A stretch of DNA of 20,214 nt from a virus. Position numbers and translations under genes: made by a program. Of this stretch, positions 3,001 to 20,214 are shown piece by piece. The stretch's first letter is position 1. Each line of letters opens with the position of its first letter. The stretch covers positions 1-20,214 of the IMG/VR virus record IMGVR_UViG_3300013126_000316; one strand, 5' to 3'. A model generated the notes under the pieces. The model saw nothing but the letters and a program-made list of their open reading frames with translations. It was not told the DNA's origin and did no database searches.

Positions 3001-6000
3001 GCGCCAAAGCTTGGCTGCGCATTTACTTGATCTTGAATCCAAGCCCTTGTTCCTTGAGAACTCCATACATCTTGAAGCGTTTGTTCAGAAGACGTTAAGT
3101 CTGATCCTGCTCTAATGGCGTTTCCAAGCTGTACTTGGTTTGCTATTTGATCTGGCGTATACCCAGCAGTTGTCATGGCTTGCCTTAAAGCCGAGTCATC
3201 TACTTTTCCAGATAAGAAATCTCTATATACGGAATTTGCTGCGTTTTGTTTTTGTTGCTTATCTATTAGTTCGTCTTCTGTAGGATTGGGATCAAACACA
3301 CCTCCTACCGTATCGTTTCCTGCTCCGCCTGATACAGTGTCTTGTTCTGTCCCACTTGGCACAGTATCTGTGCCTGATGGCGGAGTAGTAGAACTATCGC
3401 CGACTTTTGGTGCTTGTTTGCTTACATTATCTAATGTAGCAACAAGTCGATCTATACCCAATGCAATATCAAGTGGGTTTGCATTTGGGTTATTTAACAA
3501 ATTAACAAATCTAGTAGCCGCTGCTGCTACCTTGATGTCCCCACTTTTTGTAAGTTCAGCGGTTGCATTAAGGATAATTGTTGGGTTTTCAGTACCTAAC
3601 GCTTGTATAAACTTTGCACCGTTAAACGCATCACCAACTGTAAAATTAGTATCGCCAATCTTTGTGTTTGCAAGTGTGTTACCAACACCACTCTGATTTA
3701 AAAGCTCTTGCAAAGCTGGCAAATAATTATTTTGACTTACGCTATATACAAGATTAAATCCTTTTAACGCCTCTGCTGCGCCAGGAATTTTAAAATCACT
3801 AGCAGCACTTAAACCACTTAAAACTGCCCCGCCAAGATCTCCTTGCGAGACTTTGTATGCTGTATTGGCTAAATTTAAATAAGGTCTAACCTCGGCAAGA
3901 GTACTTGAAAGCGTTCTTCCTGCCTCAACAAGCTCTACTGGTAATGCGGCTGTAAGTTCTGATAGTATAGAACTACCTAACCCTGCTACGCTAGTTGCAG
4001 CCGCTGCGCCGTAACCGGCTCCAGTGACACCCAAACCTCCAAGAAAAATACCTGACTCTGAGGCTAATAGAGCAGCTTCTCCGGTTAGCGCGGCCAAACT
4101 GGAGCCTAACGTAAATGGTAACGAAAGAACAGACACTATCGTTACAATATCTTTTAACCAGTTTTCTTCATCACCGTAAGTATCAACTCTTGGTTTTCCG
4201 TTAGCGTCAAAATTTAATGTTGCGTAAGTTACGCCAACGCCTTGACCCCAGTCACCAAGATTTATTGAACTACCGTCCCGGATTTTTTGACCAGTTGCTT
4301 TGTTATATATTTGTGGTGCTGTACGATCTATTTGAATAGATCCATTTTGTATTTGGTTTTTTTGTTCTTCTGTTAATAAAACACCTATACCATTTCCTAG
4401 ATCATCAAGGTCTTCGTAATAAGGCGTTCCATCATCATAATATTTAACTTGTTTTACAACCGGACTATATCTTATTCCAAGTTGATTGATGTCAGAAACG
4501 CCGGTTTGACCAACAATCCTCCGTCCAAGTTGATCAAGCATACCAAGAGTGCCAAACCCAGGACCACTGCTTTTTCCAGATTTGGTACTCCAAGCGCCTC
4601 CGGCTGTACTCCCTAAATAGCCATTTGTTAGTTGCCTACCAACTCGAACTATCGGGTCAAAACTTTTTTCAATGCCTGTAGGCATTAATAGGTACTGCGT
4701 TCCTGCTTGATCATCAAACAGTACTGGATGCCCTAAACGTGTAACTGGCGTATTTAATTTTTGACCAGTAGTTTTGTCAATAGCTTTTACTTTTCCAACG
4801 CCGTCTTCAAAATAATATTGCCAATCTATATCTGTATAAAGATTCTTAATACCTAAATCTTTCATCTTGTTAGCAAGATGTATTCTTAACTCATTAGTAA
4901 AGTCTTTTTGATTTATTGGATCTAAATACGTTTCAGTTTTTCTATAAACATTGGTTGCTATACCCCACGGCAATCCAGTGTTGTTAATAAAATCTAATTC
5001 TGGTTTATTTTCGTTTCTCCATGCAATTGCTTCTGGTGTATTTGCAGTTTCCAAATATGTTGAGCGAAGAACCTTTTCCCCTGTAACCGGGTTTTTAACA
5101 TAAGGCTGTGTTGGTCCATACATGCCATCATCTGCCGCAACCTTTTCCCAATTAGGTTGCTCTTGATTTAAGAACGTGCCTAAAATGTCTTCGGTGACAC
5201 CTAGTGCCTTAGCAAGATCGGCATTTGAATATTTTTTTGTGTTTGCAAGCTGCTGTACTTTTATTGCTTTCTGAGGACTTGTAAGGCTTTCATCATCATA
5301 AATTGCATTAAATTCACTCTTAAGTAGTGAAAGCGGGACGCCGCTTGCAGTTCGTGGCGTTGACTCATAAGCCACGCGTTCTTGGTATTCAGTAGAGTTA
5401 GGATCGTTAAAGGATCGCCAGTTAGCTTTTTCGCTTTCTTCAATCTGCTGATTACGATTTGTGTCTACATAGTTAGCGTCTGCTTCATTAGCAAATTGAC
5501 CTACCCACCAAGGGGTTTGAGGTTTGGCTATGTTTGCAAGATAATTTGCCCAAGATTGATACTGTGGCGTTAGCCCTAAGTTTGGGTCAGTTAAGTTCAG
5601 CCCTAAGCTTTCAGCCTTGGTTCTTAGATCTGAAATATCTTCAGGCGTTGCTGTTCTTCCTTGCTCTTGAAAACGCGCATTAATAAGCGGCATCAAGTTT
5701 TGGAATGGATCGGAAGCTACAGTATTAATTGACCCTGTTGGCGTACCCTGACGAGAAGCAAGCTCTGGCGCAGCAGCCAGTTGGAATGCAGCCTTTTCTT
5801 CAGGAGAGACTTCGGCACCAAATTGGTTTGCCCAATAATCTAATCCTGGCTGATCAGCTTCACGGCCAAGAATGTCTGTATAAAGACCTTTAATCTGGTC
5901 TAAGCTTGATGGCCTTGAAGCAATTTCTGGCGCAGCAGCTTGTTTGAATATTTCTAATTCATCAGGAGATACTTCAGTACCAAACATTGATGCCCAGTAA

Positions 6001-6293
6001 TCAAGCCCTGGTTGATCTGCTTGCCGACCTAGAACATCTGTATATAGTTGACGTATTGCATCTAAATTAGGTGTTTGCTGTGCATATTGCCTTCCTTCGC
6101 CTGCGCCATATAAAGCGTAGTGACGTTGAGCTTCAAGTAACGTGTCTATCCCTGCCGCACCAAGATCAGGATAACGTGTTAAATAGTTTTGATAATCAAA
6201 GTTCTGCGGTACTTTTGATTGATCAAATACAGAACCCGTCATCCAGTTATCTAACTCTGGCGATGTCGGTGTTTTATTAGGATCAGTTGCCAT
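1..6293 (-). CDS. Giant modular virion-associated protein, DUF4214 plus Pro/Thr-rich blocks (3' end outside window)
   Basis: Reading back from an ATG at 6293 gives 2097 codons with no stop up to base 1, so the protein continues past the left edge. Order of parts: residues 37-70 hold a YPDLGAAGI...HYALYGAGEGR motif that often accompanies DUF4214; residues 77-184 are two DUF4214 units in tandem; about 715-776 and 1257-1285 are hydrophobic, glycine/alanine-rich stretches; 989-997 is a single RTX-like nonapeptide (GGAGNDTVG); 1657-1703 is rich in Pro and Thr; about 1713-1784 is a third DUF4214-like unit ending in a canonical EF-hand loop; 1801-2071 is a long Pro/Thr then Pro/Ser/Val block; the visible end is a hydrophobic segment. 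The gene starts 2 bases after the C1q-like gene. DUF4214 is common in secreted bacterial RTX-type proteins. Its place after the nozzle-like gene fits an internal, ejected, tape-measure-like or fibre protein. The reading frame is certain; the function is not. Confidence 0.88.
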   Translation of the reverse strand, partial: MATDPNKTPTSPELDNWMTGSVFDQSKVPQNFDYQNYLTRYPDLGAAGIDTLLEAQRHYALYGAGEGRQYAQQTPNLDAIRQLYTDVLGRQADQPGLDYWASMFGTEVSPDELEIFKQAAAPEIASRPSSLDQIKGLYTDILGREADQPGLDYWANQFGAEVSPEEKAAFQLAAAPELASRQGTPTGSINTVASDPFQNLMPLINARFQEQGRTATPEDISDLRTKAESLGLNLTDPNLGLTPQYQSWANYLANIAKPQTPWWVGQFANEADANYVDTNRNQQIEESEKANWRSFNDPNSTEYQERVAYESTPRTASGVPLSLLKSEFNAIYDDESLTSPQKAIKVQQLANTKKYSNADLAKALGVTEDILGTFLNQEQPNWEKVAADDGMYGPTQPYVKNPVTGEKVLRSTYLETANTPEAIAWRNENKPELDFINNTGLPWGIATNVYRKTETYLDPINQKDFTNELRIHLANKMKDLGIKNLYTDIDWQYYFEDGVGKVKAIDKTTGQKLNTPVTRLGHPVLFDDQAGTQYLLMPTGIEKSFDPIVRVGRQLTNGYLGSTAGGAWSTKSGKSSGPGFGTLGMLDQLGRRIVGQTGVSDINQLGIRYSPVVKQVKYYDDGTPYYEDLDDLGNGIGVLLTEEQKNQIQNGSIQIDRTAPQIYNKATGQKIRDGSSINLGDWGQGVGVTYATLNFDANGKPRVDTYGDEENWLKDIVTIVSVLSLPFTLGSSLAALTGEAALLASESGIFLGGLGVTGAGYGAAAATSVAGLGSSILSELTAALPVELVEAGRTLSSTLAEVRPYLNLANTAYKVSQGDLGGAVLSGLSAASDFKIPGAAEALKGFNLVYSVSQNNYLPALQELLNQSGVGNTLANTKIGDTNFTVGDAFNGAKFIQALGTENPTIILNATAELTKSGDIKVAAAATRFVNLLNNPNANPLDIALGIDRLVATLDNVSKQAPKVGDSSTTPPSGTDTVPSGTEQDTVSGGAGNDTVGGVFDPNPTEDELIDKQQKQNAANSVYRDFLSGKVDDSALRQAMTTAGYTPDQIANQVQLGNAIRAGSDLTSSEQTLQDVWSSQGTRAWIQDQVNAQPSFGAAFRKARELLGTGQTFTYDGKTYNTFTKDELARVGTASQELQNASTFDVNLMKSPLAFDASNGTTARLLAFPEFTKLMKDANVDETVPLEQRYQSYLIAQSPRVAAGQRISLPIELVYTIPPSATTTFEEPVSQFDIFKSNVLSNVAAGQRIASSVQNIINSYTSAGVGLVGSIGAGLGSIATQDAYNSFSTNLRNLANISNSASDVLVPDLAAGANRIGDAVDQADGLWNKSKALANGILENPGSAFWWAGKEGSQEIFPLLGAAKVLQATGSMKAAAAADALWNFIENTGVTKEELIEGAKQQGLNPNQINYLTDRGAMASGVVGSILETALDLPFIRQFANEAGSVGSSTALRTGLKNLGDVGLEVPKGALEEGGTVAAKNIAMTGSINDNEALTAMVLGGWLQSSTKGGFTALDAAGQSKLFKDFSSDVLQQTGEDGIPAVINEALKNNVDLKTVLGGISEGTFSRLNTPEAAESLIHAAVLGGMDRNEAASIVLNAARTSNIDLEDASEQVYTGLLDAGLSTTDALNETNKVLTTLNTDFLLDTTGKPKDRSFVTPPTVPTAPPATPTTPTAPTAPTAPPTAPTEPPTTPTAPPTTPTTPAPIYLPPEAKNVASTEDIKNIYQNVYGRTADEGGLAFWADTAKTYNLDVNDLIALFTSLDTQEWKDLSKFDVNQDNRISSTERKAYEDSLKELIDIVSPTAPTTPAVPTTPATPTTPTSPAVPTTPTETPTTPTVPTTPTETPVTPTAPTETPATPTVPTTPATPTEPTTPTSPTAPTSPTTPTTPTEPTTPTAPPTTPTETPTTPTVPTAPTETPTTPTTPVTPATPTAPTETPATPTAPTTPTTPTTPATPATPTVTPTTPTETPVTPATPTEPTSPATPATPTTPATPTTPTTPATPVSPPVSPPTTPPVSPPVSPPVAPPTVPPVSPPPVSPPTEPPVTPPTTPPVSPPVPPVRPPTSPPVSPPTTGMTMPMAQAVAAAFGMPQLANVFYY
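81..893 (-). repeat. Pro/Thr-rich block 2 (about 271 residues), degenerate minisatellite
   Basis: Residues about 1801-2071. The first roughly 200 residues repeat in threes (xTP/PTx, with Ala, Val, Glu or Ser as the variable residue). The last roughly 70 change to a PPVSPPT pattern. At DNA level, near-identical longer units occur; one 23-base stretch is repeated exactly with a 39-base (13-codon) shift at 532-554 and 571-593. Pro at every third residue predicts a rigid polyproline II rod. The reverse-frame Gly/Val open frame over the same bases is an artefact of this composition. Confidence 0.9.
942..977 (-). other. EF-hand calcium-binding loop in the giant protein
   Basis: Residues 1773-1784 read DVNQDNRISSTE. 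They match the 12-residue EF-hand loop: acidic or amide side chains at positions 1, 3 and 5, Asn at 6, Ile at 8, Ser at 9 and Glu at 12. A predicted helix follows (RKAYEDSLKELI). The loop lies directly after the third DUF4214 unit and just before the long Pro/Thr block. Calcium binding is inferred from the pattern. Confidence 0.7.
1185..1325 (-). repeat. Pro/Thr-rich block 1 of the giant protein
   Basis: Residues about 1657-1703 consist almost only of Pro, Thr and Ala, with Pro at about every third position (PTAPTAPTAPP type). The block joins the helical body to the third DUF4214 unit and probably forms an extended polyproline-type linker. Confidence 0.85.
5742..6065 (-). repeat. Two tandem 54-residue DUF4214 units
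   Basis: Residues 77-130 and 131-184 of the giant protein align without gaps, with 36 of 54 positions identical by hand count. The core of each is LYTD(V/I)LGR(Q/E)ADQPGLDYWA, followed by FG(T/A)EVSP(D/E)E and AAAPE(I/L)ASR. The (Y)xxxLGR.AD..GL.YW pattern is the DUF4214 signature. Confidence 0.85.
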
Positions 6294-6295
6294 AG

Positions 6296-6940
6296 TTACC
6301 CTGGTATCGATGACACAAACGTTGCTGTCAATATCACAGACGGGATAGCAGGTCTAGTCGGACTAGATGATGCTGTGTAGTGTTCAATATAAGCCGATGT
6401 ATTTGATGTCCGCCAGTACAGTTGCACATAATCATTGGCTAAAAACGAATCTACAAAGTTTAAGCTACCAATCACATGATAGGGGTCGCCAGCAGATTTC
6501 CTTGGTGCTAACCCAAACCGGCTGTTTGAATCAGGGATATCAACCCCGTTCTTCCTAAACCAAATGTCAATATCTTGCGTGGCGTTGTCATCATTAGCTA
6601 GTTGAATACTAAACTGGATGTTGTAAACACCTTCATACTCAAATGTAATCTGGCTATTACTTTCAATGGATACTCCACTTGCTAATGTCGTACTATTAAG
6701 TGTGATAGGGTAAGCCACTGTAGTGGAAGCAGCCGTCTGATCGGTCGTGTCATAGAACGATCCAAAAGGTAAACTGATATACCGTCCACCATCTCCCGAC
6801 AACAAACCTCTCATTGAATTGTCTAAACGGTTGAAGTACAAACGCAAGACGTTGTTTAATGCTTCTATATACAACGTTTCATAAGTTTGCGGCGCTAACG
6901 GCAAATTAGGTGGCGCAGGAACTTCAAGACGTAGTGTCAT
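6296..6940 (-). CDS. Phage structural protein with C1q/TNF-like beta sandwich
   Basis: A 214-residue protein. Residues 1-50 are a mostly helical leader (YETLYIEALNNVLRLYFNRLD) that could trimerise or attach to the virion. Residues about 55-214 are beta-rich and resemble the C1q/TNF-like jelly-roll proteins of phages: a strand region near SLPFGSFYDTTDQTA, then ITFEYEGVYNIQFSIQL, then IDIWFRKNGVDI, and a closing strand VILTATFV. The start ATG overlaps the stop of the nozzle-like gene (ATGA), which implies translational coupling. The gene lies between the nozzle-like gene and the giant protein gene, so it is probably a small trimeric tail or fibre component. The fold comes from the pattern of motifs, not from a structure comparison. 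Confidence 0.8.
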   Translation of the reverse strand: MTLRLEVPAPPNLPLAPQTYETLYIEALNNVLRLYFNRLDNSMRGLLSGDGGRYISLPFGSFYDTTDQTAASTTVAYPITLNSTTLASGVSIESNSQITFEYEGVYNIQFSIQLANDDNATQDIDIWFRKNGVDIPDSNSRFGLAPRKSAGDPYHVIGSLNFVDSFLANDYVQLYWRTSNTSAYIEHYTASSSPTRPAIPSVILTATFVSSIPG

Positions 6941-9078
6941 GCTCCACGTCCTGTTGCTCTACCATCAGACCTAATATCAATACGAGGCGCGCCAAGTTGC
7001 CAAGTACATCCCAACTGATTGGACTCTACTTTAAAAATCATCTGGCGACCGCGAACTCTTACATAAACTTGTCCTGTAAATTGTTCAATAGGCACAGTTG
7101 CTGTTCGAGTAACCCCGGCTGACGAAGATCCACTATTTGATTGAGGACTGTTATAGCCCGAACCAGAGTTCATCATAGGAATCAACGTCATTGTGACATT
7201 AGGCGATGCCGCTTCTGAACCATCAAACGTTATGTCAGGGAGTATGCGGTAGACATAGCCAAGGTTTTGCCCATCTTGAATATCAAACTCTGATGACTCT
7301 ATGTAAGCATTGATTGCTACAGGTGTACCATTGATGTTGTCATCGACGCCGCGTTCGTGGTCTACCAAGTTATATTGATATGTAGCGGCTTGTGGATAAG
7401 ACCTTAGTCCACTATCAATCCAAGCGGTTCTAGCAAGATTTCCGTAATACCAGATCTTTTCAAAATAGTTGTAGACAACGTATCGATCAATCGTTGTGGA
7501 TTCTTCAGAACAATAAAACCACCAGACTTCATTGAAGCCTTCATTAGTTCCCGCAAATACCTGTTCGTTTTGACCTGTGTTGATATCGTTAAAAATGTAT
7601 CGACGAAGATCGCAGTTAAGTGTTTGAACGCGACCATCGTAAAAATAAAATTTATCTACGCCCATCCAGTAAACCACACCGGATGCCACTGCCGTCGCGT
7701 TAGGTCCAAAAATAGAAATGTTGTCTGCTAATAATTGAGAACCCCAGACAAGTGGCGCGCCTAGATATTGAAGCGAGTACAACGAAGAATCAGTCCAAGT
7801 CACTATCTCTTGTCTGGTTTGTGCGGCAGTAATGATTTTCGACCCGTGTGATAAACGAATTGATCCCGCTTGATTTGTTGCTGAGGGACTCCAATCAACA
7901 GCCGATTCTTGATCAGACCAACGAATAAACATGGGATCTTGTGTCGCAGATCCTATTTCGTTAGTGCCAAACGCAATAACAAAACGATACGTATCAGAGA
8001 CGAAGATAAAGTTTTGTACCGTGGGTGGGCTTACTGCGCCTGGCAATGTAACAATGTTGACCCCACGCGAACCTACTCCGGATGTGGCGTCCCAATAGTA
8101 AATTGCTCCACCCCTTGGACCAAAAACTAAGTCTTCGCCAAAGTTATTAGCTGACCACAAACGTAATGAATCGGTTGCAGCAGAACCAGTTCCCCATGTT
8201 CCTAGCCCCCAGCCACCAGCTCCCCAACCAGACAATGGAAACTGATAGGCAGGTCCAGTATTGATCTGATACTCTGCATAAACAGCAGACCCGCCGCCGG
8301 TCGTTGTTGCGTTTGCATTACTTGATGCTGTGATGGAATATGTATTAGCCGTCAAATAAGTGAGTTGATACTCGTCATTTAAGTCTAACCCTGCAACTGT
8401 TGTCGCTCCGCTAAAGGTAACAAAGTCCCCCGTCAAAGCACCGTGAGATGTATGGGTTACCACAACAACTGGTGAATTATTTGTTGTAGCAAACGGATCA
8501 GTACCTAATAGATATTGTTTGATGTAATAAGACGCTGTAACAGAACCGCCACCACCAGTTACTGTTGATGTAGCCGCAGTGGTTACCGTGATGACGTATT
8601 TATTCGCGTTAGTTACTGACGTGATAACGTGCCGTGTATTTAATTCAGCGGCTGGAATACCACCAACAGTAGAAGCACCAGTAAAATAAACCAAGTCACC
8701 AGCTTTTGCGCCGTGGTCCGTGTCATTGACCGCTACTGCTGTTGATGTATTAGTTGTGTCAAAAGGATTTGACAAGGACGTTGTATAGTTTCTCGTACGT
8801 ATTGGGGTGATGTCATTGTATGCGCCACCTTGTTCAATGTAATACTTAAGGTTTGTTCCAACACCCATAAGATTTTGGGCTTGAAGCGTTACCCAGTTCC
8901 ACAGGTTGCGGCAAACTCCTAAAAAAGTATTAGGTGAGATCCTTGTCCAACCACCTATTTTTTCTGGAGAACCTTGGCGAAAACGAACCTTGTCTGAGAT
9001 GTACCAGCCACCTTCAGTTGTATACCTCGTATTTTCCCGGTTAACCCCAGGTTTATAAATAATCTTGGTAAGAGGCAT
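6937..9078 (-). CDS. Tail nozzle/hub-like structural protein (P22 gp10 or SU10 nozzle type)
   Basis: A 713-residue protein. The N terminus carries the pattern typical of phage hub/nozzle proteins: GVNRENTRYTTEGGWY, VRFRQGSPEKIGGW (about residues 31-44) and a WNWVTL...GVGTNLKYY segment. The body from about 300 has propeller-like strand motifs (LVFGPRGGAIYYWDA, WSDQESAVDWSP, VYWMGVDKFYFYDGRVQ, WWFYCSEES), and the C terminus ends with the widespread WQLGAPRIDIRSDGR motif. Two similar units of about 80 residues (104-187 and 193-273) are inserted near the N terminus, followed by a Gly/Trp motif at 284-296. The start ATG overlaps the endolysin stop (TAATG). The family assignment rests on remembered motifs. 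A general structural role is very likely; the exact position in the tail is inferred. Confidence 0.8.
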   Translation of the reverse strand: MPLTKIIYKPGVNRENTRYTTEGGWYISDKVRFRQGSPEKIGGWTRISPNTFLGVCRNLWNWVTLQAQNLMGVGTNLKYYIEQGGAYNDITPIRTRNYTTSLSNPFDTTNTSTAVAVNDTDHGAKAGDLVYFTGASTVGGIPAAELNTRHVITSVTNANKYVITVTTAATSTVTGGGGSVTASYYIKQYLLGTDPFATTNNSPVVVVTHTSHGALTGDFVTFSGATTVAGLDLNDEYQLTYLTANTYSITASSNANATTTGGGSAVYAEYQINTGPAYQFPLSGWGAGGWGLGTWGTGSAATDSLRLWSANNFGEDLVFGPRGGAIYYWDATSGVGSRGVNIVTLPGAVSPPTVQNFIFVSDTYRFVIAFGTNEIGSATQDPMFIRWSDQESAVDWSPSATNQAGSIRLSHGSKIITAAQTRQEIVTWTDSSLYSLQYLGAPLVWGSQLLADNISIFGPNATAVASGVVYWMGVDKFYFYDGRVQTLNCDLRRYIFNDINTGQNEQVFAGTNEGFNEVWWFYCSEESTTIDRYVVYNYFEKIWYYGNLARTAWIDSGLRSYPQAATYQYNLVDHERGVDDNINGTPVAINAYIESSEFDIQDGQNLGYVYRILPDITFDGSEAASPNVTMTLIPMMNSGSGYNSPQSNSGSSSAGVTRTATVPIEQFTGQVYVRVRGRQMIFKVESNQLGCTWQLGAPRIDIRSDGRATGRGA
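8260..8769 (-). repeat. Two similar ~80-residue inserts in the nozzle-like protein
   Basis: Residues 104-187 and 193-273 share the pattern (N/D)PF.TTN.S..V.V..T.HGA..GD.V.F.GA.TV.G, then a TxxxY.IT.....A..TGGG segment and Y(Y/Q)I. They look like a duplicated small beta domain set into the protein between its N-terminal region and the Gly/Trp motif. Confidence 0.8.
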
Positions 9079-10089: not shown

Positions 10090-10527
10090 TTACCCCTTAG
10101 CCGTTACGATGTCTTGGCCTTTTTTGACCGTGACTTTACTGCCTTCAACATCCACTTGCATGGGTTGCTCGGCTCGGTCCAGCTTATCAAGACGGTGGAT
10201 CAAGTCTTTGATGACTTCAAACTCTGGCTTTTCTTGTTTTGGATTTGCCCCAGCAATGCCATTGAGCATCTGAATAAGTGCAGTAAGTGACGCGCCGAGT
10301 AAGCCCATCACAGCCGCGATCTTTTCGCCATCAAGGAATAGCGATGCACCAACACCCACAAGCACAATCAGGAAGATGTATAGCAGCCCATCTTCACCAA
10401 TGGCTTTGCCGGCGACTTCCTTGGCTGAATCTTGAGCCTTTAATTCCTCAAGCCTAATCTTGGCCTGAGCCTTGAGGACCGCCAACTCATGGGTTTTGTC
10501 ATCCAATTGAATCACCCATAGAATCAC
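10090..10527 (-). CDS. Small two-helix membrane protein of the lysis cassette
   Basis: As drawn, 145 residues from a GTG at 10527. Residues about 8-40 form a charged helix (KTHELAVLKAQAKIRLEELK), followed by two membrane segments at about 47-64 (LLYIFLIVLVGVGASLFL) and 70-93 (AAVMGLLGASLTALIQML). The C-terminal region from about 95 is soluble and charged. The start is uncertain: GTG at 10515 and TTG at 10506 are in frame, and a later start would shrink the 29-base overlap with the upstream gene. Its position just before a 3TM holin and an endolysin suggests a lysis role, as a second holin, antiholin or accessory protein. I do not recognise the family. It has no lipobox or signal peptide and does not look like a spanin. 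Confidence 0.75.
   Translation of the reverse strand: MILWVIQLDDKTHELAVLKAQAKIRLEELKAQDSAKEVAGKAIGEDGLLYIFLIVLVGVGASLFLDGEKIAAVMGLLGASLTALIQMLNGIAGANPKQEKPEFEVIKDLIHRLDKLDRAEQPMQVDVEGSKVTVKKGQDIVTAKG
10093..10098 (-). promoter_or_regulatory. Shine-Dalgarno of the holin gene
   Basis: AAGGGG on the minus strand lies 5 bases before the ATG at 10087, inside the last codons of the preceding gene. It is among the clearest ribosome binding sites in the window and supports this start. Confidence 0.75.
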
Positions 10528-10831
10528 CTAAGAATACGGAATCGGCTGGGGAATCGGCTGGCAGATCAACATACGTCACCTCAACTGGTTCTACAGTTGG
10601 AATGACGACCTTCGTGGCAGGTTGATGAATAATTGCTGTCCTGCCATTTAGGATCGGCGTACATGGCACTAAGACTTCAGTCTCAGGATCGTAAGCCACA
10701 TCAGCAATTTCATAAACGCTATGGGTCTCTAGCCATTCAGGTGTTCCCGATGGCGGGAAGACGTTTGAAATGAACATTGCTTCAAGAGTGCCGGTGTTGA
10801 CGATCCTGCCTTCTTTGATGATTGCATACAT
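10499..10831 (-). CDS. Small phage protein of unknown function
   Basis: A 110-residue soluble protein with no membrane segment. The N terminus reads MYAIIKEGRIVNTGTLEAMF, with FPPSGTPEWLETHSVYEIAD after it (about residues 25-45). The C-terminal half is proline- and valine-rich (TKVVIPTVEPVEVTYVDLPA). It ends in short repeats, PADSPADS and then GDSMGDS. It starts 2 bases after the stop of the five-LamG protein gene, and its 3' end overlaps the next membrane protein gene. A small gene straight after a large fibre gene is a common place for a fibre assembly chaperone or accessory protein, but nothing in the sequence proves this. Confidence 0.75.
   Translation of the reverse strand: MYAIIKEGRIVNTGTLEAMFISNVFPPSGTPEWLETHSVYEIADVAYDPETEVLVPCTPILNGRTAIIHQPATKVVIPTVEPVEVTYVDLPADSPADSVFLGDSMGDSIG
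10538..10561 (-). repeat. Perfect tandem 12-base repeat (2 copies)
   Basis: The unit ggaatcggctgg (plus strand) occurs twice back to back and codes for PADS PADS near the C terminus of the small unknown protein. A second short duplication, GGTGATTC (minus strand), lies just downstream and gives GDS twice. This looks like recent slippage. Confidence 0.9.
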
Positions 10832-10833
10832 GA

Positions 10834-13800
10834 TTAGCCTATTGGGAAAGGTCCGGTGGGGACGGTAATTGATGCGCCGGAATAGCCTCTGTTGTAACCT
10901 TTGGTTATACGAAAGTCATCAACATAACCATTCAATTTCCACGTTGTTGTAGCGTCTGCGTTATCTCTCAAAGTCCCAAGTAAAAATGTGGTGTCAGTAA
11001 GGTTATTGCTTAAGGCTGAAGAATTTACAAGCGACCCTGCGACGTAAAGATAAACCGTTGATCCCGTTCTTACGACAGCAACATGAGTCCAAACTGAATT
11101 TGTAATAGAACCGCCAAAGTTAACTCCAGCATTGTTTAGTACCATCTGCCACGCATTTCCAGACGTTAAATACAAAGCAATTCCAGTGGTGGAGGTGTTT
11201 GTTGTTCTGGTGTCAAAGATTCCTTGAGCTTTACTTGCATTCAAATAAACCCAACCCTCCACAACAAAATCGCCGCTGCCTAAAGGTACGGTTGTAACAG
11301 CTACGTTTAAATATGTTCCGGACGCCCCATTGAAAGCCATACTGCCCGGAGGCCACTTAGCCTGCACTGTGCTGACCTGAGCATTTGCCACCGTCTCCAA
11401 GTTATTCTTACCCGTCGCATCGACAATCCCGCCGCCAGTGAAGTTGAGCAGGAGGGAGGTGTTGGGTATTGCAGTGGGTGGAGCAGTGGGCGGCGTGAAT
11501 ATTGTTACACCTGTAGAAGTAACGCTTGTTTGATATAAGTCTGGGACTGCACCTTTAACAATTCTTAAGCTAGATATATAACCAGATTGGCCGCTGGTCA
11601 TAAAAGTTGTAGAAGTAACATTAAGAGTGCGGCTTGTTGTGTTATAGGATTGCAAGACGCCATTAATAAACATACGAACAGCAGTGCCAACCCTTGTAGC
11701 AACACAATGATTCCAAGCGTTTAGGGTAATTGTGTTCTCCGCAGTCCTAAAATAATCTTCCCCGCCGCCGCCATCAAGAGCAAGAGATAATCGATTTACT
11801 CCGTCAATCGTAAACCAGTATTCCGAAGCGCCTACATTGCCGCCAACATACTTCCATGCAAACGTAATTGAAGCTGCTGTGGGATAGGCCCAACCTTCCA
11901 TACAAAAGTCACCAGTCATATTTAGCGCCGACGCACTTGGAATCGTTAGACTGTCCCCACTTGCATCAAAATACCCACTCCCGCCCGTGACCAGTGGAGA
12001 CGATTGCGTTGCCGGGGCGAAGGGTGAGAAGGCTTGGACTGAGAGCGTACTTGTTGGGGTCAGTGTGAAGTTGTTGGGGCTGTTGTCTTTGAAGCGATTG
12101 GATTGGCAGGTGAGAATACCTACCGCCCCCGTAATCGACTGCGTCGGAACGTTTGTCCCTGTCCAGCCAACAACCGTGCTAGATAGCAATTCTGTGGGCG
12201 GCGTGAACGCTCCAGTTGCAAAAGCCTGACCTTTTGTAAATCGAATATTTGAGATCAGCCCCGAGAAATATTCTCCGCCAGCCGAGCTACCAACATAGGC
12301 CGATGCAGAAACAGAAGTCGGAGAACCGCTGTAGCTGCTGTTTGAGCCTACAAGATTGCCGTTCAGGTAAAGAGAAACCGAGTTGCCACTTCTCACAGCA
12401 GCAACATGCGACCACGTATTAAGACTTGGGGCCGAGCTAGACGTAACCACGCCGCCGGTATCGACCTCCAAGAAGAGGTAGCCATTGCTTGAATTGATCC
12501 TGAAAATCCATCCGTAGCCATCCGAGCTTCGTTGCTTCGCGATAATCCGCTGGTTGCCACTGTAGTTGAGCGGATAGATCCAAGCCTCGACAGTGAAGTT
12601 TCCCGATCCAAGGTCAAGCGCCGTCGTTTGAGCAACAGAAAGATTGTTTGCCCCATTGAAGTTATTGCTCCACCCCGTAGGACTGAACGGGCTGAACGTC
12701 CCTTGGGTCGTATTACCATTCTTCGTAACGATGAACTCGTTAGGACTGCTATCTATAAATCCGATGTTTTGTGATGCTGCGCGGGTCTGGAGGGTGAGGA
12801 GGGATGTGTTGGTGATCGGCGTCAGTGGTGCCGTTGGTGGGGTAAAGGTAGATGTGTAGACAGCCGTGCTTGTAGTTCTAAGACTGCTGATGTAACCCGT
12901 AAAAGCCGATGAAGCATCTGAAAACGCACCTATAGTAGCCGCAATTTGCTGTATAGATGCGGTATAACTTGAAACGGTTGTATCCAATGCACCGTTAATA
13001 AATAATAATAAATTGTTACTTGAATCTCTAACAACTGCAACATGCGTCCATGTGTTTGTTAAAACACTTGCCACTGATGTAGCTGTTGAAGCAGATGAGT
13101 TAGCAAAAGTTAATTTTCCAGAAACAATTCTAAAACTACTTCTTCCAGAAGTTCCCGCTGAATATTGAGTCCATATTGTTTCGTCGGTTACATCCGTCGG
13201 AAAAACCCAAGCTTCAATTGTAAAAGTGCCTGAAGAAGGTATTGGTATACCAGTCGCCAAACTCAAATAATCCCCATTCCCATCAAAATACCCCGCGCCG
13301 GTCGTGGAGTCGGTAGATACGAAAGGCGAGTTGTCGGTGACTCTGACGTCGCCGTTACGGGTGATGGTGAAGCCTGAGCCGCTGTTAGCCGTGCTGTTGT
13401 CGATGAAGCGGTTGGACTGGCAGGTCAGCAGGGAAGTGCCGGTGATGTTCTGGAGAGGTTGGGTTGGTGGCGTGAAGTTGGTCGTGTAGACCGCAGTGCC
13501 TTTTACTAAGCGCAAGTTGCTTAAATATCCGTTGAAATATCCGCCTGCTCCATCAACATCAAATCCACGTCCAACTCGTAATTCGCCATACCCCAAGTTA
13601 AAACCAAGACTTGCACTGATTGTTACAGATGCGTCTTGCGTTCCGTTTAAATATATTTTTAATGACGTACCCTGCCGCACAATAGCAACATGCGTCCAAA
13701 TACCATAAGCAACGGTACTGGCAGAAGCAATGACTGGGTCACCACCTCCATTAAGGTACATAAAAATCTTTTGTGAATAGCCCGTATTACTATACCGAAT

Positions 13801-14283
13801 GCTTGCCGAACCTGATGTGTTGTAATCGCTAGAACTCACAATGCCCGGATAATTTCCCGGCTGCGCCCCTACGGCGTTAAACCAAAACTCAACCGTTGCA
13901 TCGCCAGTCCCAAAGTTAAATGCGGCGTTTGTTGCTACGTTTAAGTAATCCCCACTTCCGTCAAAATAATTGCTATAGTTCCCACCAAAATACGGACTAA
14001 ACGGCCTTGGGCTTACATCACCATTAGGGGTGACCAAGAAGTTGTTGGTACTTGCGTCTGAGTTGTAGGCCAGAGGCTGTGTCATCGCCTGTGGGCCTGT
14101 CGTGTTGGGGACGTTGCCTTGTAGTAGCAGGGTCGTGTAGTTGAAGTACGGATCGGGCTGGAACGGCCAGAGATTATTGCGCTGTGCAACGATTTGATCG
14201 CGCAGGGACCATACCCCAGAAGCCGATGACTGCGTGGGCGTGACGTTTGGTAGCTTGATGATGTTGCCGGGGAATCGGGACAT
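10834..14283 (-). CDS. Large surface protein with five LamG-like (concanavalin A-like) domains
   Basis: A 1149-residue protein. Residues 16-45 carry a probable virion-anchor motif (PTQSSASGVW...AQ..NLWP), shared with the gene upstream. Five LamG-like jelly-roll domains follow at about 107-262, 332-470, 541-682, 770-910 and 983-1128. Each contains the family pattern (YFDG.GDYL, F(T/V).E.W.(Y/F)P, W.HVA.VR, (L/V)Y(L/I)NG and GY(I/L)S.LR). Between domains is a repeated linker, FTPPT.PL...TSLLTCQSNRF.DNS, then NGD....FSPF. LamG domains usually bind carbohydrates or surface ligands, so this is a likely receptor-binding or decorating fibre. The ATG follows an AGGA ribosome site (14290-14293) that overlaps the upstream TAG stop. 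The linkers are more GC-rich than some of the domains. No enzymatic residues are evident. Confidence 0.88.
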   Translation of the reverse strand: MSRFPGNIIKLPNVTPTQSSASGVWSLRDQIVAQRNNLWPFQPDPYFNYTTLLLQGNVPNTTGPQAMTQPLAYNSDASTNNFLVTPNGDVSPRPFSPYFGGNYSNYFDGSGDYLNVATNAAFNFGTGDATVEFWFNAVGAQPGNYPGIVSSSDYNTSGSASIRYSNTGYSQKIFMYLNGGGDPVIASASTVAYGIWTHVAIVRQGTSLKIYLNGTQDASVTISASLGFNLGYGELRVGRGFDVDGAGGYFNGYLSNLRLVKGTAVYTTNFTPPTQPLQNITGTSLLTCQSNRFIDNSTANSGSGFTITRNGDVRVTDNSPFVSTDSTTGAGYFDGNGDYLSLATGIPIPSSGTFTIEAWVFPTDVTDETIWTQYSAGTSGRSSFRIVSGKLTFANSSASTATSVASVLTNTWTHVAVVRDSSNNLLLFINGALDTTVSSYTASIQQIAATIGAFSDASSAFTGYISSLRTTSTAVYTSTFTPPTAPLTPITNTSLLTLQTRAASQNIGFIDSSPNEFIVTKNGNTTQGTFSPFSPTGWSNNFNGANNLSVAQTTALDLGSGNFTVEAWIYPLNYSGNQRIIAKQRSSDGYGWIFRINSSNGYLFLEVDTGGVVTSSSAPSLNTWSHVAAVRSGNSVSLYLNGNLVGSNSSYSGSPTSVSASAYVGSSAGGEYFSGLISNIRFTKGQAFATGAFTPPTELLSSTVVGWTGTNVPTQSITGAVGILTCQSNRFKDNSPNNFTLTPTSTLSVQAFSPFAPATQSSPLVTGGSGYFDASGDSLTIPSASALNMTGDFCMEGWAYPTAASITFAWKYVGGNVGASEYWFTIDGVNRLSLALDGGGGEDYFRTAENTITLNAWNHCVATRVGTAVRMFINGVLQSYNTTSRTLNVTSTTFMTSGQSGYISSLRIVKGAVPDLYQTSVTSTGVTIFTPPTAPPTAIPNTSLLLNFTGGGIVDATGKNNLETVANAQVSTVQAKWPPGSMAFNGASGTYLNVAVTTVPLGSGDFVVEGWVYLNASKAQGIFDTRTTNTSTTGIALYLTSGNAWQMVLNNAGVNFGGSITNSVWTHVAVVRTGSTVYLYVAGSLVNSSALSNNLTDTTFLLGTLRDNADATTTWKLNGYVDDFRITKGYNRGYSGASITVPTGPFPIG
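10900..13965 (-). repeat. Five LamG-plus-linker units
   Basis: Repeat units begin near 13965, 13290, 12663, 11976 and 11337, about 210-230 codons apart. At DNA level the linker is most conserved: 12081-12114 and 13395-13428 match at all but about 5 of 34 bases, over the region coding for TCQSNRF. The domains themselves have diverged much further than the linkers. Confidence 0.8.
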
Positions 14284-14289
14284 GCCTGT

Positions 14290-14293
14290 TCCT
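14290..14293 (-). promoter_or_regulatory. Shine-Dalgarno of the five-LamG gene
   Basis: AGGA on the minus strand, 6 bases before the ATG at 14283, overlaps the TAG stop of the upstream gene. It fixes the start and suggests translational coupling of the two large surface proteins. Confidence 0.65.
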
Positions 14294-16763
14294 ATCGTGC
14301 AAGACTGAGTCTGAAAGGATATTCTGCGAAAGCGGCGTAGATGTAGGTATTGCTTGAAGTGTTGTACGCGCCATCAGTGTTTCTGATTTTAAACCCGCTT
14401 GAGAGAATATCGATGTTGACCGCGCTGGTTGTCACATCCGCTGCGGAAGTATTTGGGGAAAGTTTTGTGTCAGAAACATTATATGGATTTCGTGAAGTGT
14501 CATGCAGCACCCAATCCGCTGCCGGAGAACCCGTAGCAACTTTAATCAATACCCATCTCGGCCTGAACCCGAGATACACAAACGGACCATCCGCCGAGCC
14601 ATTGCCAGTATACGAACCAAATGCGCTGAAACCAGTTATAGGAGCAAAGGCGTACCAGACAAACGGACCTGAGATATAAGACCCAACGGTAAATAATGAA
14701 GATGTCGGCTGAGTTCCGCCCCAAACACCAGAGTCTATGTTTTCTGCGCCGGTTGTAAACACCAAAAACTTTGTTGCCCCAAGCGAACTGTGGTAAATAA
14801 CCCAATTGGTCCCGGCAGAATCTCTGTCTTTTCCAATAATAAATCCGGGAACAGCGTTCAATCCATGACCAACCGTAGCAGGTCCGGCTGATCCATTTGT
14901 TGTGATTACACTAAACCCAGACGACGGATTAGCCCTTACTGAGCTTGTAATGGTTCCTTGTGTATTACTGACCGTTGAGCCGCCTGCGTACCACTGCCAT
15001 GCCACATAAGTTGCTGTGTTGGTGTTGACCTGAGCTAATGCACCAACCGTAAAGCCATCGGCACCAAAGGCGGTAAGTCCAGTGGTTTCAGTTGTTTCGT
15101 CTGTTGTTGTGTTGCTTTCAAGCTGCTTCTCTACGCCACGCACAGCGTCATACAAGGCGTGGTCAGTTGCTGCCGAGCGAGACTTGATCCATACCAAATC
15201 AGGTTGGAAACCTGTGCCGGTGACTGATTGTGTTGATCCTGTTCCCGTATACAGCACTGTATTGAAGTAATTATCAGCCTGATTGGTGGATGTCTGACCA
15301 ATAGCAGGAGCCGAAAGATTCGTCGTGCAAAGGGCTTTGAAGCCTGTTGGTGCGGTATAAGCGAAGGGGCGTTGGCCGAAGTTGCCGTACCACGCCGAGG
15401 TGTAGGAAGCCTCGCGGATTACCCTGACAGTGGGAATCAGTGTGCCTGATAGACCAGTGAAAGCGGTCCCCTGACTGACGCCGTTTTTGTAAAAAGTCAT
15501 TGTTCCGGCATCTAAGTCTAGAGCAACGCCAATTATGTCCCCTGTTGTAAATGAAGATCCATAACTAGCGGTTGTTCCAAGTGTTACTTTTTGACCTCCG
15601 CGCAAGTATGCATAAGCGGCATTAGCATTATCTGTGGCTGAGGTAGCCCAGCCTATGTGAGCTTCAAAAGAAGAACTGCCACTTTGACTAAACATTGCTT
15701 CCCAGTACCACTTGCCCGAACTTACGGCGAACGTGGCGTAGGTACTCTGACCGGTAGTTGAACCGGTACTCGTTGTCACATCCAAAGCGCCATTCGACAG
15801 GGTAATAATGCCACTGAAAGCTGGAAGCGCAGGGTTCCATGTCGCGTAATTCCCCCTCACCTCACCGCCAAGGCCCGTATCTGTGCCGTACAGACTTGGC
15901 ACATCCAGTAAGGAATCGTTGCCTGTTCCTGCGGTTACTGAGAAGTTATTAGGCGTCCAGTTGTTGCCATTACCACTAGCGTCGTAACCAAGCGCCGTTG
16001 TGGTTGAGTTGTTCGTAAAGGGCAGTCTGAAGCCATTAGTGCCGTAGGTTCCGGTGTAAACCTTGGGAACCCATACGCCTGTTTGTGCGTCGGTCTCGCC
16101 GAAGGAAGATGGGGTTAAAGCTTGGCCGTCAATGAAGTTGACCTCGGCCATGTAGCAGTTTGCTAACTCCGTTCCGTTATAGGCACTCGCTCCGATCAAA
16201 TGTGCCTGGGCAGCATTGACCGAATAATCCGTATTTAGCGTTGGATAGCTTGCCACAGCGAAAGCCGTAAGTTCAGTACCATTGATGTAAAGACGGACGC
16301 GATTTGCAGCAGTAGCTTGCGTCGTGTCAAATGAGAGAACCAAGTGGTACCAAGCAGACGGATCACGGAATACTGCCGTTGTCTGAACCTGAAACTGAAA
16401 AGCTGTAGTGTAGTAAAAAACCTCAATTGCGCCGTTTGACGTTAATTGCATTCCGGTGAAGCTTGTTGACGTAACACCAGCATTGAAAATTACATAACTG
16501 GTTGATACGACGCTTCGCTTAACCCAGCCGCTCCATGTCCAAGTTTTACGATTTGATGCGCTTGCAGGCGTCCTATTCAGATAAGCACTATCCGCACTGT
16601 TAAACCGCAAGCTCCGCTGGATCACATTAGGCGGCAGAGGCCATGCGTTCTGTACCTGTGCAGAGGCTTGCTGCTCAAGCTCCCAGACACCTTGTGCCGA
16701 CGATTGGGTCGGAGGGTTCGGCGCAGCCGTGATAAAGCTGCCTAAATAACGGTCAAGACCCAT
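14292..16763 (-). CDS. Modular tail/surface protein: LamG-like, SPRY and DUF7483-like regions
   Basis: An 823-residue protein. Residues 18-47 hold the anchor motif PTQSSAQGVW...AQ..NAWP, nearly the same as in the next gene. A LamG-like domain spans about 47-225 (WTWSGWVKR, WYHLVLSFDT, RLYINGTEL). A linker with YDASGNGNNWTPNNFS follows. A SPRY-like domain lies at about 345-465 (GKWYWEAMF, HIGWA, GDIIGVALDLDAGTMTFYKNG). The C-terminal third, about 500-823, has three related motifs (GFQPDLVWIKSR, LNAVPGFIIGKDRDSAGTNW, GFRPRWVLIK) and resembles the phage family DUF7483. Such proteins are usually annotated as tail or structural proteins. LamG and SPRY are binding folds, so host recognition is the likely role. 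The start ATG abuts the preceding TAA directly. Confidence 0.87.
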   Translation of the reverse strand: MGLDRYLGSFITAAPNPPTQSSAQGVWELEQQASAQVQNAWPLPPNVIQRSLRFNSADSAYLNRTPASASNRKTWTWSGWVKRSVVSTSYVIFNAGVTSTSFTGMQLTSNGAIEVFYYTTAFQFQVQTTAVFRDPSAWYHLVLSFDTTQATAANRVRLYINGTELTAFAVASYPTLNTDYSVNAAQAHLIGASAYNGTELANCYMAEVNFIDGQALTPSSFGETDAQTGVWVPKVYTGTYGTNGFRLPFTNNSTTTALGYDASGNGNNWTPNNFSVTAGTGNDSLLDVPSLYGTDTGLGGEVRGNYATWNPALPAFSGIITLSNGALDVTTSTGSTTGQSTYATFAVSSGKWYWEAMFSQSGSSSFEAHIGWATSATDNANAAYAYLRGGQKVTLGTTASYGSSFTTGDIIGVALDLDAGTMTFYKNGVSQGTAFTGLSGTLIPTVRVIREASYTSAWYGNFGQRPFAYTAPTGFKALCTTNLSAPAIGQTSTNQADNYFNTVLYTGTGSTQSVTGTGFQPDLVWIKSRSAATDHALYDAVRGVEKQLESNTTTDETTETTGLTAFGADGFTVGALAQVNTNTATYVAWQWYAGGSTVSNTQGTITSSVRANPSSGFSVITTNGSAGPATVGHGLNAVPGFIIGKDRDSAGTNWVIYHSSLGATKFLVFTTGAENIDSGVWGGTQPTSSLFTVGSYISGPFVWYAFAPITGFSAFGSYTGNGSADGPFVYLGFRPRWVLIKVATGSPAADWVLHDTSRNPYNVSDTKLSPNTSAADVTTSAVNIDILSSGFKIRNTDGAYNTSSNTYIYAAFAEYPFRLSLAR

Positions 16764-17135
16764 TTAGGTAATTGCCTCGTAAGATGCAACCAGTTCTAAT
16801 GCGCTTGCAGTGCCAACCGTAACCACCACTGATTGACTATCAGTGACGTACATGGCTGTCGTCTTATCAAGTATAACCAGCGTCGAGTATGCAGGCACTG
16901 AGATCTGATAAGCAACCCGATAAGCCGTACCACCACCGCCTGTGGCTGAGTTGATTGAAACCGTTACCGTTGCAGCCGCTGAGGTGACGTTAGACGCGGT
17001 CATGAAGTCCACACGGTTGACCGTGTTGGATGATGGCGTTAACGCTGTCCAGGTATTGGCTGACGTATTTGACGGGATCAGATAGCTGGTATCACCAACA
17101 ATCGATGTGACATTGACAATATTTGGCGAGGCCAT
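16764..17135 (-). CDS. Small beta-rich virion protein
   Basis: A 123-residue protein, beta-rich throughout, with no membrane segment. The opening MASPNIVNVTSIVGDTSYL and the later pattern AYRVAYQISVPAYSTLVILDKTTAMYV (about residues 71-97, in part) resemble a family common in marine and freshwater phages and annotated as a structural protein. The ATG has a strong AGGAG site 7 bases upstream, which overlaps the previous stop. Its stop touches the start codon of the large LamG/SPRY gene (TAAATG). A decoration or fibre-collar role would fit the context, but no specific function is known to me. Confidence 0.8.
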   Translation of the reverse strand: MASPNIVNVTSIVGDTSYLIPSNTSANTWTALTPSSNTVNRVDFMTASNVTSAAATVTVSINSATGGGGTAYRVAYQISVPAYSTLVILDKTTAMYVTDSQSVVVTVGTASALELVASYEAIT

Positions 17136-18029: not shown

Positions 18030-18038
18030 CACCACCTT
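18030..18038 (-). promoter_or_regulatory. Shine-Dalgarno of the tail-fibre-like gene
   Basis: AAGGTGGTG on the minus strand has its AAGG core 7 bases before the ATG at 18027, overlapping the stop of the repeat protein gene. Confidence 0.7.
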
Positions 18039-18564
18039 ATGTCGTAATGGGCGTCCAGTTGGCTGTCTGGTTTGTATTGATAGGTTCCCACAATAACCTT
18101 CTATTTATTTCGTCTGATGCCGTCGCTGTTTCAGAAACTAATATTCCAGGTTTAAAGTTCACAATCACTACATCGTTACCAGAAGCCGATTCACTTACTG
18201 TTATTGCAAATTTTACAAGGGCATCATTAAGTTCGCTAGCAGTTGCCGACTCTTCAATAAGTGACCCAAATGTAACTTGTCCATCTACAGCATCAGTTCC
18301 TGTTGCTGATTCGTCAACATATGCACCAATGCCAACCAACGAAAGTAAAACTTCTGACCCTGTAGCGCTATCTGAAACTTCAGCACCAAACTGTGTATTA
18401 CTTAAAACTACATCCGAAGCAGTGGCTGATTCTTGAATACTTAATGAATAAGCTGTTGTAATCTGATCCTGAGCCGTAGAAGCTTCATCAACGTTACGGT
18501 CATAAACTGAACCGCCCCACGCTGACTGACCCCATGAACCAGATCCCCAGCCGCTAACATCCAT
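18037..18564 (-). CDS. 20-residue ESATASD-repeat phage structural protein
   Basis: A 175-residue acidic protein. Residues 5-17 form a Gly/Trp motif, GWGSGSWGQSAWG. From residue 26 on, the protein is a run of repeats beginning (D/E)(S/T)A(T/S)(A/G)(S/T)(D/E), with the first acidic residue at 45, 65, 85, 105, 125 and 145, an exact period of 20; a shorter unit starts at 26. Each unit ends in a hydrophobic strand such as LVGIGAYV or FAITV. The regular period suggests a beta-solenoid or stacked-hairpin rod. The C terminus (about 154-175) is non-repetitive and contains WEPINTNQTANWTPI. Similar repeat proteins occur in uncultured aquatic phages, usually without a defined role; a fibre shaft or spacer is plausible. 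The start is 1 base after the upstream TGA, with no strong ribosome site visible. Confidence 0.8.
   Translation of the reverse strand: MDVSGWGSGSWGQSAWGGSVYDRNVDEASTAQDQITTAYSLSIQESATASDVVLSNTQFGAEVSDSATGSEVLLSLVGIGAYVDESATGTDAVDGQVTFGSLIEESATASELNDALVKFAITVSESASGNDVVIVNFKPGILVSETATASDEINRRLLWEPINTNQTANWTPITT
18076..18489 (-). repeat. Seven ~20-residue protein repeats
   Basis: Seven units, six of them spaced exactly 20 codons (60 bases). The Ser-Ala-Thr core after the acidic residue is the constant part, while the hydrophobic half varies. The DNA copies are clearly diverged, so the period is kept by selection on the protein rather than by recent duplication. Confidence 0.85.
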
Positions 18565-19146: not shown

Positions 19147-19563
19147 CTAATCCATCCTTATCAAAGCATTGGTAGCCGAATTAGTCGGCATCGTAATAGT
19201 AAACTTGGTCGTCGTTGTTTTGTCGGAACCAAAATCTAAAACAGCAATCGAACGATTTGCTTTACTACTGTTGTATATCAAAGCACACCGTGAAGTAAAT
19301 GAAGCTGGATCCCAAATAACATTATCAAAATCTACATAAGCTACAGTACCAGACGAGTTGACCGTCGTTCCTGTCAACACTTTTCCGCCTGCGCTATAAC
19401 CCGTACCTGTTACTTCATTAGATGCTGTGTATACCGTTGTTGATTGATTTAAATCTGCATTCGCAGTATACAAAGCAATCTTCAATGTGTCTGTTAAAAG
19501 ATCATGAATGCCTTCATACAGTTCTACTTTGAAGCTAGTAGTTTGTCCCTGAACAATACTCAT
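19147..19563 (-). CDS. Phage structural protein (MSIVQG...SFKVEL family)
   Basis: A 138-residue beta-rich protein of a family common in environmental phages. Typical segments are SFKVELYEGIHDL at the N terminus, LKIALYTANADLN (about 27-39), NEVTGTGYSAGGKVLTG (about 49-65), VAYVDFDNVIWDPASF (about 74-89), CALIYNSSKANRSIAVLDFG (about 93-112) and a final ITMPTNSATNALIRM. No catalytic motif is seen. The ATG overlaps the adaptor gene stop (ATGA), so it is probably coupled to it. Neighbours point to a small tail or virion surface component; its function is not established to my knowledge. Confidence 0.82.
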   Translation of the reverse strand: MSIVQGQTTSFKVELYEGIHDLLTDTLKIALYTANADLNQSTTVYTASNEVTGTGYSAGGKVLTGTTVNSSGTVAYVDFDNVIWDPASFTSRCALIYNSSKANRSIAVLDFGSDKTTTTKFTITMPTNSATNALIRMD

Positions 19564-20214
19564 GAGACTTGTACCCTAACCTGCCCATCACGGTAAGCAT
19601 CCATACGTTGTTTACCGTCGCCAAGATTCTTCAACAGGGCTATGGATTGAACATAACGCTCTTGAGAAAGTTTTAGCAAATCTGGTTCAAGCTTTAGAAA
19701 AGTTGAACCTTCATAAATTGTTGCGTTCAATAATGCCGAATCAAAGTTATCACCTAACCAAGTAGTCGTAGCTGTAACTATTGACTCTGGATAATAGTAG
19801 TAATGAAGTTCTACGCCATAACTTAAATCAGGCGTCGGACCTAAAATAAACACCAACTCATTAGGAGAGCCAGGGTAATCTGGACCAAAAATTGCGTAAT
19901 GCCGTGGCTTACCTTTATCTGTTGGATTTGGGTACGCTTCACGAATGAAGTTCACATCTTTGTTCAACAGATAAAGATAGTCACCGCCAGCCGATGGATA
20001 AACAGCCATTGAATACACTGAAAGAAAATCAGCAGGGCATTGAAGGTACTTATTATCGGCTGTGCAATTAGCTGTCACATTCTTTCGCAGATTAGCAATC
20101 TGTACCGTGTTGTAGATACGTTGCTCTGCCTGACGGATCATCGTATTGATGTCCGTCGTATTAAAGGTCGTTTCAAGATAATCTTGAACCGCTGTGACAA
20201 GCTCCGAATAGGTC
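19560..20214 (-). CDS. Head-tail adaptor-like protein, SU10 adaptor type (5' end outside window)
   Basis: The frame is open to the right edge, and 217 codons are visible. An internal ATG at 20141 is not the true start, because in-frame sequence upstream (YSELVTAVQDYLETTFNTTD) matches the usual N terminus of this family and precedes IRQAEQRIYN. Further features are LQCPADFLSVYSMAVY, FIREAYPNP, KPRHYAIFG, FILGPTPDLSYGVELHYYY and a C-terminal helical region (EGSTFLKLEPDLLKLSQERYVQSI). The pattern fits the phage SU10 adaptor family, which forms the ring joining portal to tail. The next gene overlaps its stop by 4 bases. Being at the upstream end of the tail genes fits an adaptor. The family call is from memory of motifs. 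Confidence 0.82.
   Translation of the reverse strand, partial: TYSELVTAVQDYLETTFNTTDINTMIRQAEQRIYNTVQIANLRKNVTANCTADNKYLQCPADFLSVYSMAVYPSAGGDYLYLLNKDVNFIREAYPNPTDKGKPRHYAIFGPDYPGSPNELVFILGPTPDLSYGVELHYYYYPESIVTATTTWLGDNFDSALLNATIYEGSTFLKLEPDLLKLSQERYVQSIALLKNLGDGKQRMDAYRDGQVRVQVS

Follow-up and report, generated by a model that had tools for sequence, protein, structure and literature searches.

A two-part N-terminal tag on exchangeable adhesin-like proteins of aquatic phages, and a small jelly-roll protein as its candidate socket

We analysed a virus record of 20,214 bases from an uncultured water phage (the whole stretch, a fragment, is called the window here) and found that two neighbouring genes for large putative adhesins, A and B, start with the same kind of two-part N-terminal tag. 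In more than a hundred other phage sequences this tag recurs in front of exchangeable bodies and downstream of a gene of near-constant family, c0. Our favoured reading, somewhat better than an even guess, is that the two-part tags fix swappable adhesin bodies to the virion, most likely through c0, predicted to be a jelly roll, or through an assembly on it. No description of the tags was found in the titles and abstracts that searches of an open-access library listed, and neither the tags nor c0 have a name in the Pfam and PHROGs libraries searched.

The shared N-terminal anchor and its two elements

Genes A (16763-14292) and B (14283-10834) both lie on the minus strand and are separated by 8 nt. 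Their features are as follows.

14292-16763, minus strand: protein A, 823 aa, N-terminal anchor followed by a body with LamG_3, SPRY and DUF7483 (ORF and Pfam)
16728-16751, minus strand: tag I of protein A, RYLGSFIT, residues 5-12 (anchor alignment)
16638-16697, minus strand: tag II of protein A, AQGVWELEQQASAQVQNAWP, residues 23-42 (tblastn and profile), with a helix predicted between the two Trp
10834-14283, minus strand: protein B, 1149 aa, N-terminal anchor followed by five LamG_3 domains (ORF and Pfam)
14254-14277, minus strand: tag I of protein B, RFPGNIIK, residues 3-10 (anchor alignment)
14164-14223, minus strand: tag II of protein B, ASGVWSLRDQIVAQRNNLWP, residues 21-40 (tblastn and profile)

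Comparison of the 823-aa protein with the window by tblastn revealed 47% identity over 45 aa between the N termini of A and B (E 7e-8). The anchor-anchor alignment scored 92, against 44 for the highest of 5,000 shuffles; the likeness of the two N termini is thus genuine and greatly exceeds what chance would give. A first-pass annotation of this DNA had described the motif as PTQSSAxGVWxLxxQxxAQxxNxWPxxP, which is indeed present in both proteins; the end positions given for it needed correction, to residues 18-45 (not 47) in A and 16-43 (not 45) in B. The similarity begins before this motif, at RYLGSFIT and RFPGNIIK (tag I), and the anchor measures about 46 residues in both proteins, being directly continuous with LamG_3 in A. 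Matches of Pfam and PHROGs to A and B begin only downstream of the anchor. The bodies gave no blastp match to each other, in agreement with the earlier description of different bodies behind a common motif, though both contain LamG-type domains.

A profile was built from the two window copies and iterated over 208 loci, which had been fetched by the 823-aa protein, by phage-record matches and by an in-frame DNA pattern. Within these loci it detected 216 matches in 132 environmental phage contigs, and none in the reversed sequences. The N-terminal position proposed for the motif holds in these other phage proteins as well, since 206 of the 216 matches lie at most 60 residues from the start of their open frame. 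Exactly two copies on the same strand were found in 80 contigs (75 after dereplication), with 36 pairs in directly adjacent genes. The in-frame DNA pattern occurred in at least 120 stretches, compared with 5 for a pattern with an out-of-frame spacer, which gives the empirical chance rate. A GenBank search with the anchor alone returned one phage record, DSL-LC04. Six clearly internal motif matches were considered as a refutation of an N-terminal anchor and rejected as such, because each of these ORFs also has a tag I at its N terminus or close to it; five of them read tag I-body-tag II-body, and in the sixth (L118) tag II stands at the end of the ORF. We also observed one locus (L110, 10983-11009) in which an open frame of just 50 codons contains the first anchor, stops just past GVWTP and is followed by a complete B gene; this may be a broken A gene or an assembly error.

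The upstream (A) and downstream (B) anchors are two distinct types in fixed order: one tree split recovered the order for 86% of the copies, whereas swapping the labels within pairs gave at most 64%. Comparison of the genes downstream of c0 showed that the anchor consists of two separable elements, tag I (RYxGGxI) and tag II (SGVWTLxxQ..A....WP). Among 124 c0 loci, 43 read (I+II)(I+II), 35 read (I)(II)(I+II) and 7 read (I)(II)(I)(II), and the series I-II-I-II, with the pair exactly twice, is present in 85 loci, spread over two, three or four proteins. A single (I+II) protein was found in 14 loci. For the loci fetched with c0 as bait alone the three arrangements numbered 6, 14 and 6 (26 of 40). 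This tally used hand-written exclusions of small or unrelated genes, and trailing tag I calls were removed. The tag II profile matched none of 498 upstream genes; the tag I regular expression is loose and matches 7% of unrelated genes, and tag I assignments are therefore less sure. Pelagibacter phage HTVC033P and S-SKS1 are c0 phages with tag I only, and Synechococcus phage Bellamy likewise has c0 together with adhesins of tag-I-like start. In a further locus (L289, 6001-12372) c0 is followed by three paralogues of about 480 aa that share another common start, AEGAITAGKPVIVEADGDVAQVA, with no tag II and no recognisable tag; these are possibly a different body type whose tags have diverged or are absent.

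The bodies behind the tags are diverse and include LamG/SPRY/DUF7483, RCC1 and SBBP beta-propeller, Gly-rich and fn3 types. Among pairs of same-type anchors that are at least 75% identical, 44% (A) and 41% (B) carry non-homologous bodies. The window and one relative (L004) share 91% and 87% identity in the anchors and 61% and 48% in the remainders; when more distant relatives are compared, conservation of the A anchor does not exceed that of the A body. Of 70 phages, 44 have two bodies that are homologous to one another, compared with 11% between phages, and therefore a paralogous pair of adhesins is the commoner state and the unlike bodies of the window represent the minority. It is plausible but unproven that the phage displays two specificities, as the first-pass annotation had supposed.

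Linkage of the tags to the upstream gene c0

Directly upstream of the gene for the 823-residue protein lies a conserved gene that the first-pass annotation had overlooked.

16764-17135, minus strand: c0, protein of 123 aa predicted to fold as one jelly roll, possible socket of the tags (linkage, AF2 model and jelly-roll matches)

Clustering of the neighbouring genes of the 75 motif pairs singled out c0 (about 125 aa) as one near-constant family, present in 65 of the 75 contigs and, with few exceptions, encoded ahead of the first anchor. Among loci of at least 8 kb, 78 contain both motif and c0, 10 the motif alone, 1 c0 alone and 59 neither; that is, c0 accompanies the motif in 78 of 88 loci and is missing from 59 of 60 loci that lack it. 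Loci fetched only by similarity to the body of the 823-aa protein gave the same picture (c0 in 11 of 12 with the motif and in 1 of 56 without), and the one c0 locus scored as lacking the motif, L009, has the architecture (I)(II), one tag having diverged. When c0 served as an independent bait, 41 of the 42 loci that extend 4 kb or more downstream matched the motif profile, and reading of the architecture placed tag II in 39 of 40. Bacterial and archaeal assemblies yielded seven c0 loci, in all of which a tag was visible by eye among the neighbouring genes. Two loci with the motif that were negative for the c0 profile (L167 and L059) have a protein of 110 to 129 aa at the place of c0, with weak profile similarity to it (hhalign probability 52% and 66%), and a third (L104) has no full gene left upstream. 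The association of c0 with the motif is linkage and not proof, because related phages share many genes, and genes that are neighbours and have descended together would be linked in any case. Similarity of c0 and similarity of the anchors were weakly correlated, with Spearman coefficients of 0.18 and 0.25 (n=64), and little of this correlation was left once neighbouring genes were controlled for (n about 23).

The AF2 model of c0 is a single jelly roll with a pLDDT of 91.9. The first ten residues (MA.PNIVNV) are conserved and form the lowest-confidence part of the predicted structure. The structure matches include the KHP40 cement protein (Z 9.2) and a 114-residue turret chain of the archaeal virus HFTV1 (Z 8.8); the jelly-roll matches, at Z 8-9 and rmsd 3.5-5.1, fall within the stated noise range of the tool. 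In PHROGs, c0 of the window had no match, and two marginal matches were obtained among 25 relatives. When c0 was modelled as if read through its stop codon into the anchor, from an alignment that omitted the row of DSL-LC04, the anchor reached moderate confidence (about 55-82) with a helix in tag II; there was no strand pairing between tag I and c0 in this one model, which speaks neither for nor against docking.

Docking site, neighbouring genes and alternative readings

We propose that tag I (RYxGGxI) and tag II (SGVW-helix-WP) may together form a two-part docking element that fixes the adhesin bodies to the virion. The docking surface would most likely be c0, or an assembly built on it, and this hub would offer two compound sites, A and B. 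In the window phage, one large protein would occupy site A completely and the other would do the same at site B, while in relatives three or four smaller proteins would take the same I-II-I-II positions. The following genes of the window bear on where on the virion such a hub might sit.

19560-20213, minus strand: SU10-type head-tail adaptor, incomplete at the window end (PF24175, E 8.8e-22)
6937-9078, minus strand: stabilization-type tail protein, 713 aa (phrog_3287, E 1.5e-60)
10499-10831, minus strand: 110-aa protein after B, no Pfam family (neighbour clusters 4, 15 and 42)

The SU10-type adaptor and the phrog_3287 stabilization protein were each found in 29 of 31 larger records, and no contractile sheath was detected in these 31 mid-sized relatives. 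Most carriers of the cassette look like short-tailed phages, and the adaptor and stabilization genes place the window phage with them, its sheath status being taken from relatives as the window is a fragment. In many of these larger records (G001-G029, W01 and W02) the PF24175 adaptor family is matched at least twice in the genome. The cassette of the window sits between the adaptor and stabilization genes, and both this position and the frequency of the two genes would suit tags that dock directly on the tail machine, in the adaptor or nozzle region, with c0 as a co-inherited neighbour of another role. We regard this as fairly unlikely, because four records, L158 (157 kb), Bellamy, S-SKS1 and the L296 assembly, combine c0 and tags or tag-I-like starts with a contractile sheath and show no match to an SU10-type adaptor, and because c0 is missing from phages that have the same bodies without tags. 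The adaptor or nozzle, which the first-pass annotation had named as a partner for modelling, is disfavoured by the same contractile-sheath records; what stands of its common docking element with alternative modules is the N-terminal element and the swappable bodies. Since the cassette also occurs in phages with contractile-tail genes, c0 is the better candidate for the partner; judging from gene content, it would be more economical to assume a partner that accompanies the tags whatever the tail type.

The jelly-roll fold raises the alternative that c0 forms the base of a turret or decoration on the head and carries the tagged proteins as capsid turret heads, as in HFTV1, in which the hexameric turret base gp30 bears the trimeric turret head gp31 (PMC12494034). 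The alignments of c0 with the HFTV1 turret chain and the KHP40 cement protein are consistent with such a role, but jelly rolls are common, these matches lie in the noise range, and the cassette genes sit in the tail and lysis region, which makes this reading unlikely.

Small genes like the one for the 110-aa protein sit between or after the tagged adhesins in relatives, and this protein may be an assembly chaperone. Genes of about 118 aa starting with MAHFA (L083, 5928-6284, and similar ones) form a small family without Pfam match that recurs at such places and is another possible chaperone. The N terminus could be an assembly signal, such as a chaperone-binding site or a trimer nucleus, instead of a virion dock, and the short helix predicted for tag II would be compatible with it. 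We consider this very improbable, given that the small genes vary in family and position whereas c0 is near-constant, and that tagless bodies are widespread. That the tags are a functionless relic of a recent single-gene duplication, as the homology of bodies within phages might suggest, is scarcely credible, given that the anchors outlast replacement of the bodies, that the A and B types are old and distinct, and that the split forms keep the order.

Other genes of these regions were also recorded. Cargo-like genes lie between tagged adhesins in L083 (5324-5944, annotated as a 2OG-Fe(II) oxygenase), L104 (2167 onward), L146, L208 and L258, and in loci of the RCC1 type the cargo-like proteins with a PRSGSTVLAAILNQ motif are putative sulfotransferases. 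Proteins with WGxGxWG repeats lie upstream of the cassette in many loci (window 18037-18564, minus strand; L083 1149-2278; L095). At 3-6293 (minus strand) the window encodes a giant protein of 2097 aa, cut by the window end, that combines DUF4214 domains with a long tail of Pro/Thr-rich repeats; its repeats also create antisense ORFs at 67-933 and 1180-1455, which are unlikely to be genes.

Comparison with known systems and significance

In phages of the K1-5/SP6 type, the adapter gp37 holds two tailspikes through conserved N-terminal peptides of 7 and 11 residues, as described in PMC6872550. The window resembles this arrangement in having two adhesins with unlike bodies, each with a short conserved N-terminal peptide, the bodies here being presumed to bind receptors; if c0 is the adapter, the window cassette would work in the same way. 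The tag of the window differs in being bipartite, of other sequence and splittable over several proteins, and its candidate socket is a 125-aa jelly roll, whereas the K1-5 adapter has a T4gp10-like domain. No T4gp10-like domain was found by Pfam in A, B or the neighbours scanned.

The KP32/G7C scheme (PMC6872550) is similar in that the second adhesin has a conserved N-terminal peptide and phages exchange the bodies; it differs in its first adhesin, which combines a long anchor with a T4gp10-like dock for the second, the latter having the peptide only. Both window adhesins carry the same kind of tag instead, and A is without a T4gp10-like Pfam domain. We know of no GVW/WP tag in HFTV1. A likeness to HFTV1 would consist of the jelly-roll match to c0 (rmsd 5.1, one among many) and of the arrangement of a base plus a surface protein; HFTV1 differs in the capsid location and the single head protein of its turret (PMC12494034). 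We file the window system as a variant of adhesins with short N-terminal docking peptides, outside the K1-5/SP6, KP32/G7C and HFTV1 families.

More tentatively, the cassette could be a widespread plug-and-socket independent of tail type in aquatic phages, in which a c0 hub with two compound sites would hold two to four exchangeable adhesins per virion in the order I-II-I-II, the tags being joined on two proteins or distributed among three or four; we think this possible rather than probable. With the tags, host-recognition proteins of uncultured aquatic phages can be picked out by a rule on sequence even when their adhesins belong to no recognisable family, and c0 names one small protein as the likely socket. 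Modular display of multiple adhesins per virion thereby becomes testable with short peptides and one 125-aa protein.
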